From: Parabacteroides sp.
GTDB lineage: Bacteria; Bacteroidota; Bacteroidia; Bacteroidales; Tannerellaceae
Assembly: GCA_017481945.1 (NCBI GenBank)
Contig: JAFUOJ010000008.1
Span: 1 to 55,134 of the forward strand
Direction: 5' to 3'
DNA: 55,134 bases
The position numbers and the translations under genes are program-made. Below the pieces are notes generated by a model. It made no database searches and was not told the origin of the DNA. It worked only from the letters and a program-made list of their open reading frames with translations. Shown in pieces: positions 4,314 through 4,574 of this stretch. Position 1 is the first letter of the stretch. The number at the start of each line of letters is the position of its first letter.

Positions 4314-4574
4314 TTTCCATATACTGGAAATTATTCTCAGATAAAAATAAGTATTTTCCAGCCTCTGGAATTTATGTTTATTTATTAAAAAACTTTTTCC
4401 AGCCTCTGGAATTGATTTTTCTGTATAAAAAAGCCTTTTCCAGGTGCTGGAAATCATTTTTCACTTTTCAAAAGTATTTTCCAGGCGCTGGAAAACGTTT
4501 TTAAATTCTGAAAGTCTTTTCCAGCTGCTGGAATTTATTTTTGAAAACTTTTTTAGAAATTCCAGCCTCTGGAA
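4314..4574. repeat. Array of seven palindromes at 41-bp spacing
   Basis: Seven copies of TTCCA-N5-TGGAA. The outer copies carry three to six further matching bases, most often TTTTCCAGNNNCTGGAA. Copies begin at 4315, 4356, 4397, 4438, 4479, 4519 and 4560, i.e. steps of 41, 41, 41, 41, 40 and 41 bp. The intervening 26 bp are AT-rich and weakly similar to one another (for example AAAAAG before TTTTCC), so this is a diverged 41-bp tandem repeat rather than repeats with unique spacers. The last copy ends 14 bp before the -7 box of the patatin gene. The steps equal about four helical turns, placing all copies on one face of the DNA. The open reading frame running through it (4283-4504) is an artefact. 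Confidence 0.9.

Follow-up and report, generated by a model that had tools for sequence, protein, structure and literature searches.

What is a row of evenly spaced palindromes doing between two divergent genes of a Parabacteroides sp. contig, and which of the two does it serve? The question was raised by the window, by which we mean the whole 55,134-nucleotide stretch analysed (contig JAFUOJ010000008.1, assembly GCA_017481945.1), where seven copies of TTCCA-N5-TGGAA form a phased array at 4315..4574. An earlier note, drawn up from the sequence alone, had placed these copies and the steps between them (41, 41, 41, 41, 40 and 41 bp), and all were confirmed: site 1 (TTCCATATACTGGAA, 4315..4329), the weakest, is followed by sites 2 and 3 (TTCCAGCCTCTGGAA, 4356..4370 and 4397..4411), site 4 (TTCCAGGTGCTGGAA, 4438..4452), site 5 (TTCCAGGCGCTGGAA, 4479..4493), site 6 (TTCCAGCTGCTGGAA, 4519..4533), which is preceded by the single 40-bp step, and site 7 (again TTCCAGCCTCTGGAA, 4560..4574). 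With a period of 41 bp the array has spacers of 26 bp; the centres of its sites vary while the arms are conserved, as the note had said, and the arms extend to TTCCAG-N3-CTGGAA at six of the seven sites, TTCCATATACTGGAA being the exception.

When the window was shuffled with its dinucleotides preserved, the pattern matched 0.09 times on average and twice at most, and none of 100 shuffles reached seven. A comparison with Rfam gave 34 matches up to E 5, none reaching its gathering score, the best by bits being RalA with 29.5 of 170. In G000, the genome of the window (83% complete, with 2.79 Mb in 45 contigs), the TTCCAG-N3-CTGGAA pattern has 32 perfect matches and a reversed control pattern has none. 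All 32 fall within arrays at eight intergenic loci, some of these arrays including degenerate members, and with such members counted the steps at the eight loci are 41 bp, with one exception of 40 bp.

The window locus and its two divergent genes

On the minus strand, the array is followed by a gene for a 272-aa DUF6261 protein (3391..4209), which matched Pfam family PF19775 with E 5e-30 and passed the curated cut-off (104.9 bits versus 27). The gap between the array and its start codon (4210..4314, minus strand) presumably contains the DUF6261 promoter, as judged from other loci; no exact -7 box was identified in this gap. On the plus strand, a patatin-like phospholipase with a C-terminal Omp85-like barrel is encoded at 4626..6941, the barrel match lying slightly under the cut-off. 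It is preceded by TAGTTTTG (4589..4596, plus strand), a Bacteroidota-type -7 box. The last palindrome ends 14 bp before this box and lies over the -33 region, just as the note had described; by inspection, its right arm coincides with the -33 region conserved in relatives of the patatin promoter. As this site sits at a conserved position, an effect of the array on patatin is possible, although as a secondary one.

The note had gone further and taken the array for an operator through which a dimeric regulator controls the promoter of patatin and possibly also that of the divergent gene, a reading that we now consider distinctly unlikely. An ortholog of the patatin gene with at least 66% identity was found in 36 of 38 genomes of the genus (three as fragments), and 26 of the 29 relatives examined have no array in the available sequence upstream of it. 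Copies of the arrays also lie between convergent genes, and the neighbour that recurs beside arrays is the DUF6261 gene; the array goes with the divergent DUF6261 gene, patatin being a neighbour and not a partner. In favour of an operator, the last site overlaps the -33 position, the last dyad stands in weak helical phase with the -7 box of DUF6261 genes (see below), and in two relatives the same patatin gene is preceded by a 41-42 bp array of unrelated sequence (TTGGAGGCCTCCAA at L225 in G005 and CTACTGCAGTGTACAGTAG at L226 in G052), with no match to the window DUF6261 alongside, a recurrence that was noticed post hoc. Upstream of the patatin gene of G049 (L220), a 22-bp type palindrome array with a lag of 44 was observed, which perhaps belongs to the HU-like class discussed in the last section.

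A tblastn search (E 1e-4) for the window DUF6261 gave no match upstream of patatin, over up to 1.5 kb, in 29 relatives, although two of these offered fewer than 150 bases in that region and a search of this kind may miss a distant DUF6261. In 14 of the 29, htpG lies within 1.5 kb upstream of patatin, which together with the missing match points to an insertion between htpG and patatin. In the window, a 294-aa gene with no Pfam match (2421-3305, plus strand) overlaps the htpG stop codon, and this gene was not found beside patatin in the 29 relatives. The 294-aa gene, the DUF6261 gene and the array appear to have been inserted between htpG and patatin in the lineage of the window.

Pairing of DUF6261 genes with upstream arrays

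Homologues of the gene that diverges from the window array, recognised directly or in one step, lie beside five arrays in three other genomes, each with the array upstream of it, and a sixth case was found in Plebeiobacterium. A scan of GTDB species genomes for the TTCCAG dyad, a search that the earlier note had proposed, returned 26 stretches (17 from Parabacteroides, six from other Bacteroidota and three from Alphaproteobacteria). The dyad does recur every 40-42 bp in the Bacteroidota arrays, with 22 in L028, whereas the spacers mostly differ between genomes and often carry a dyad of their own; two MAGs (L020 and L032) have one common array, and the three Alphaproteobacteria stretches contain just two sites each. 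Within the genus, adjacent TTCCAG pairs at array spacing occur in 7 of 38 genomes, and all seven carry DUF6261 in 7 to 52 copies. DUF6261 is present in 29 of the 38 genomes, with up to 52 copies, and across the order in 20 of 198 sampled genomes, representing 15 of 150 genera.

For a broader comparison, 123 distinct DUF6261 proteins were assembled from 80 further regions and the earlier loci, mostly from four genomes (G045, G020, G009 and G010), and the 121 genes with at least 200 bp of upstream sequence were set against 148 other genes of the same loci. The best repeat lag fell at 40-43 bp for 116/121 DUF6261 genes versus 16/148 controls, and a tandem array (identity of at least 0.55, lag 39-44) was present upstream of 111/121 versus 0/148, leaving 10 of the 121 without an array at this threshold; all array calls are sensitive to the identity threshold, which was set at 0.55-0.68 over 66-82 bases. 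With a second search window and a larger control set, upstream arrays were found at 74 of 85 DUF6261 genes and at 37 of 1270 other genes. Arrays of 40-43 bp also occur downstream of other genes (46/1240), and part of these control-gene arrays, upstream and downstream, will be dispersed arrays of the kind treated below. Downstream of DUF6261 genes themselves, a 40-43 bp array was found in 0 of 86 cases and an array of any kind in two.

The order-wide search yielded 27 new loci with 26 DUF6261 reading frames, recognised with a profile made for this analysis. An array accompanies 22 of these 26 and is absent at four loci (L184, L193, L194 and L196); outside the genus the count is 21 of 25, spread over 11 other genera. 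Of the seven DUF6261 genes in the window genome, six are accompanied by an array, the exception being L046. Within the genomes compared, these results led to the conclusion that the pairing of DUF6261 genes with phased palindromic arrays is robust and that the arrays are mostly private to each gene. In Bacteroidales this pairing is apparently undescribed.

Array symmetry, turnover and level of action

The 111 cis arrays range from 3 to 14 units, with 4-8 units in 94 of them. Their 537 steps measure 41 bp (253), 42 bp (247), 43 bp (24) or 40 bp (13), and the mean of 41.53 (sd 0.62) equals four helical turns of 10.38 bp. This period of 41-42 bp is constant across arrays of unrelated sequence, and unit G+C extends from 20% to 76%. 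The consensus units are palindromic, with 7.0 of 9 pairs matched in the best dyad compared with 5.8 after shuffling, and 39% of the 111 arrays, versus 12% of shuffles, have a second dyad at least 19 bp away, near half a period. A TTCC-N5..9-GGAA core is present in 21 of the 111 consensus units (15/104 without the seven loci tied to the TTCCAG motif), while shuffles of all 111 average 0.28.

Between homologous arrays, 37 of 41 doubly changed dyad pairs were still complementary, as in TCCTAC/GTAGGA versus TCCGAC/GTCGGA or TTGCG/CGCAA versus TTTCG/CGAAA, compared with 0-6 of 20-35 in slid controls in which the partner was moved by 3-7 columns; the comparison covers 28 ordered (14 unordered) array pairs, which are not independent. 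Within single arrays, 643 one-sided changes were counted beside 70 complementary and 78 non-complementary double changes, and the 70 compare with 31-44 in slid controls, a weaker excess than between homologous arrays. Judged by these alignments, array symmetry is kept by compensatory change. The constant period and the compensatory changes indicate selection on the dyads as helically phased sites in double-stranded DNA, so that the earlier view of selection acting on sites for a dimeric protein stands in this respect, though not as regards an array serving chiefly as patatin operator.

The sequences themselves turn over rapidly. Array similarity drops near background below about 70% protein identity, and proteins that are 60-70% identical mostly have unrelated arrays. 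At two syntenic DUF6261 loci (L110 in G020 and L084 in G045), the proteins are 56% identical and the arrays unrelated, a difference that may reflect either fast turnover or replacement in place.

Tandem repeats directly upstream of a protein gene are also found in type III toxin-antitoxin systems such as ToxIN, and the ~41-nt tandem repeats immediately before DUF6261 genes would suit an RNA-level system of this type, in which DUF6261 cleaves or binds repeat transcripts made from the array. We regard such a system as very unlikely. The promoter -7 box TANNTTTG was found 24 times in sense and twice in antisense orientation in the 111 array-to-ATG gaps, few of which thus hold an exact box, compared with 26 sense and 27 antisense occurrences, that is no strand bias, within 200 bases before the array. 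Where a box is recognisable, the array therefore lies upstream of the core promoter and, unlike in ToxIN, the promoter is located after the array and before the gene. If the arms paired in a structured sense RNA, G.T mismatches should outnumber A.C mismatches; the two are equal (166 versus 173 in 76 arrays), and hence there is no signal of RNA wobble. The position of the -7 box together with the absent wobble signal points to arrays that act as DNA rather than RNA, and the repeats differ from those of ToxIN in this behaviour as well. Moreover, none of five DUF6261 proteins compared by PADLOC matched a defence family, toxins of the ToxN/CptN/TenpN type included, and Pfam recognised DUF6261 alone in the window protein.

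Weak 10.5-bp phasing between the last dyad and the -7 box was seen at the 17 DUF6261 loci where this box is clear (R 0.49, n=17, P ~0.016); of the four periods tried, the two longer ones gave no signal.

Dispersed arrays, the DUF6261 protein and a proposed sister system

Arrays are not confined to DUF6261 genes. With a query joined from pieces of five other G000 cis arrays, relatives of each were found elsewhere in G000, and the neighbours of such orphan arrays in this and other genomes include genes for serine hydroxymethyltransferase, pyruvate formate-lyase, transketolase, glycine cleavage H, seryl-tRNA synthetase and RuvX. Scattered copies away from promoters, which the earlier note had named as evidence against promoter control, do exist: copies between convergent genes, with no adjoining promoter, occupy six loci in G000 and account for 13 of 47 orphans in a scan of two genomes. 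Among these 47 orphans with flanking genes, sampled cis arrays provided a match from within the genome for nine and from another genome for nine, the sample comprising the arrays of 22/38 DUF6261 genes in G045 and 15/52 in G009. Tandem orphans lie closer to the upstream stop codon in 19 of 25 cases, and the ratio of convergent to divergent orphans is 13:9 against a background of 29:51 (P 0.085).

Array number rises with DUF6261 number in the four genomes compared: the densities of 40-43 bp arrays per 400 kb are 0 in G012, 0 in G014, 20 in G045 and 36 in G009, for 0, 1, 38 and 52 DUF6261 genes, respectively, as counted in chosen stretches, two of them evenly spread and two on contigs where DUF6261 hits were already known. 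The automatic split into cis and orphan arrays is rough, since the G009 stretch has nine DUF6261 genes but three arrays called cis, and three arrays inside an ORF.

Spacing was analysed in parts of three array-rich genomes against nulls of ORF-derived intergenic sites, with pieces of the same class within 800 bp merged before gaps were counted, which removed one gap of 274 bp. In 400 kb of G009, 34 arrays left 32 gaps, none of them below 5 kb (minimum 5,263 bp, median 9.6 kb), where random intergenic placement predicted 10.6 such gaps and 0 of 5000 trials matched. The 10 arrays in 140 kb of G010 are separated by 5,962-18,679 bp (median 14.0 kb), with a cv of 0.28 (0 of 5000), P 0.002 for the minimum gap and P 0.019 for gaps below 5 kb. 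In G045, 16 arrays in seven blocks left 10 gaps, two of them below 5 kb (P=0.53) and with a minimum of 4,142 bp (P=0.08), neither being significant. Spacing at intervals of about 10 kb is thus regular in two of the three genomes. Adjacent arrays in G009 C1 are similar in sequence in one of 24 pairs, and as neighbours are mostly unrelated, deletion between like repeats offers no ready explanation of the spacing. Near DUF6261 genes of G045 and G009 we observed one other array within 3 kb, in 216 kb, versus about 13 predicted from the scan density, arrays being frequent elsewhere in both genomes.

A neutral minisatellite with no function would explain rapid sequence turnover and homogenised units. 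It is contradicted by the association with DUF6261 and by the way array number follows gene dose in four genomes. The narrow period, the compensatory changes and the regular spacing seen in two of the three genomes are also at odds with it, so that we find it hardly credible.

The main rival to the anchor reading developed below is a selfish, REPtron-like spreading repeat, which we rate as a serious though doubtful candidate. DUF6261 would then copy or mobilise its own array, in the manner proposed for RAYT proteins and REPs, orphans would be non-autonomous copies, and the spacing would result from target immunity or the purging of clustered insertions. REPtrons, as described in PMC3733652 and PMC8266576, combine REP sequences, which are dispersed extragenic palindromes of family-specific sequence, with the gene of a cognate RAYT/TnpA-REP protein, and the DUF6261 arrays resemble them in being dispersed, extragenic, family-specific, tied to a protein gene and located in tandem and convergent gaps. 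Near-identical copies of gene plus array at non-syntenic loci of one genome (L108/L109, 98%), the absence of DUF6261 from the htpG-patatin interval of the 14 relatives that have one, and the dispersed relatives of all five of the five other cis arrays queried in G000 speak for this explanation, as does the bias of tandem orphans towards stop codons, REPs tending to lie downstream of genes according to PMC3733652. In contrast to REPtrons with their HUH/Y1 transposase partner, Y1_Tnp gave no match in G000, G009, G010 and G020 and one each in G045 and G052; the DUF6261 arrays are phased tandem arrays of 41-42 bp with dozens of paralogs, most having a private array, and are regularly spaced in two genomes. 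When arrays were inspected by eye, no GTAG-type tetranucleotide was noticed beside the dyads. Pfam found no transposase or nuclease domain in DUF6261, and no terminal repeats or target duplications were noticed in passing. Given the one similar pair among 24, immunity would need to act across families, and such a repeat has no need of a position upstream of the gene's promoter.

The DUF6261 protein itself offers both support for and doubt about direct DNA binding. The window protein is predicted to be all-helical with a disordered tail (pLDDT 80.5, pTM 0.50), its predicted structure gave no informative fold match, and no described function of DUF6261 was found in the literature searched, where the name turns up in one of 5.39 million papers. 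The family is acidic (median pI 4.8, core 5.2), which is unusual for a DNA-binding protein and counts against direct binding. A C-terminal DUF4469 domain follows DUF6261 in two of six proteins scanned, and the same domain follows the PF14848 DNA-binding domain in three of three HU-like proteins scanned. DUF6261 thus stands where the HU-like proteins have their DNA-binding domain, which is the main argument for direct binding by DUF6261, proposed here by analogy to such a domain swap. The HU-like genes are multi-copy in the same genomes as DUF6261 and have palindromic arrays of their own, which differ from the DUF6261 arrays in their downstream position, their 22-24 bp period and about one dyad per unit; they were found downstream of 20 of 30 HU-like genes versus 26 of 1240 other genes. 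Examples directly downstream of PF14848 genes in genus genomes include L253, L254, L256, L240 and L250, among others.

The explanation we tentatively prefer, with a little less than an even chance of being right, is that DUF6261 binds its own arrays, the divergent DUF6261 gene being the cis partner of the window array, and that the arrays work as anchors on the chromosome; we infer both the binding by the neighbouring protein and the anchoring or domain role from sequence comparison. Acting as a homodimer or in a larger assembly, each DUF6261 protein would bind the palindromes of its own array cooperatively on one face of the DNA, with paralogs diverging in specificity as both half-sites change together. 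Through the cis array the protein might sense or control its own level, the dispersed arrays would be addressed anchors by which the chromosome is arranged in domains of about 10 kb, and the HU-like proteins with their 22-24 bp arrays would form a sister system in the same genomes. Counting against this explanation are an array turnover at 60-70% protein identity that is faster than expected of operators, the own-genome cis match of just 9/47 orphans, the spacing in G045, the one-sided dyad changes and the DUF6261 genes that have no array.

It is unlikely, in our view, that another host protein, such as a nucleoid protein, binds the array and that DUF6261 is an effector under array control. 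The acidity of DUF6261 and the recognisable promoters between array and gene would fit this arrangement, but since arrays differ from paralog to paralog, one protein would have to read shape alone, and the joint increase of arrays and DUF6261 genes across four genomes also argues against it.

Palindromic sites read by a dedicated protein are well known from parS/ParB, matS/MatP and other chromosome-organising sites, each with one conserved site sequence per genome, whereas DUF6261 paralogs are paired with differing sequences in phased arrays. A more speculative proposal, in which we place only limited trust, is a sequence-addressed scaffold in which DUF6261 paralogs, together with the HU-like ones, read their own arrays and mark the chromosome every ~10 kb with dozens of addresses, each protein bridging its own small set of loci into programmable domains. 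If the anchor reading is true, this lineage has private DNA addresses at regular intervals that are read by tens of paralogous proteins, a form of chromosome organisation or repeat-protein partnership for which we found no description in the literature searched, which included few subscription journals. It would provide a direct handle on the function of DUF6261, on the many HU-like genes per genome and on sequence-specified domains of ~10 kb. If DUF6261 mobilises the arrays, they would instead constitute a REPtron-like system with an unrelated protein.

The HU-like genes and their 22-24 bp arrays make up a second protein-array system, which may include BrickBuilt of Porphyromonas gingivalis, a MITE/minisatellite of intergenic tandem repeats with 19 copies in one strain, one of which adjoins a PF00216 DNA-binding protein gene (PMC4596501). 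Its 23-nt unit without spacers, with a leader and a tail that have inverted ends (PMC4596501), sets it apart from the window array with its period of 41 and 26-bp spacers; the unit length is closer to the 22-24 bp class than to the 41-bp class, and the passages of PMC4596501 consulted describe no link to DUF6261.

The window contains a second, weaker array with a 42-bp period (14855..14997, unit GCCTACGATGAAAGTAGCAAGCGGTTAAAACAATCTCCGGAG) about 10 kb from the first. By inspection, each of its units has two dyads, CTAC-N7-GTAG and CTCCGGAG, and it is a probable orphan array of the same kind as the array at 4315-4574.
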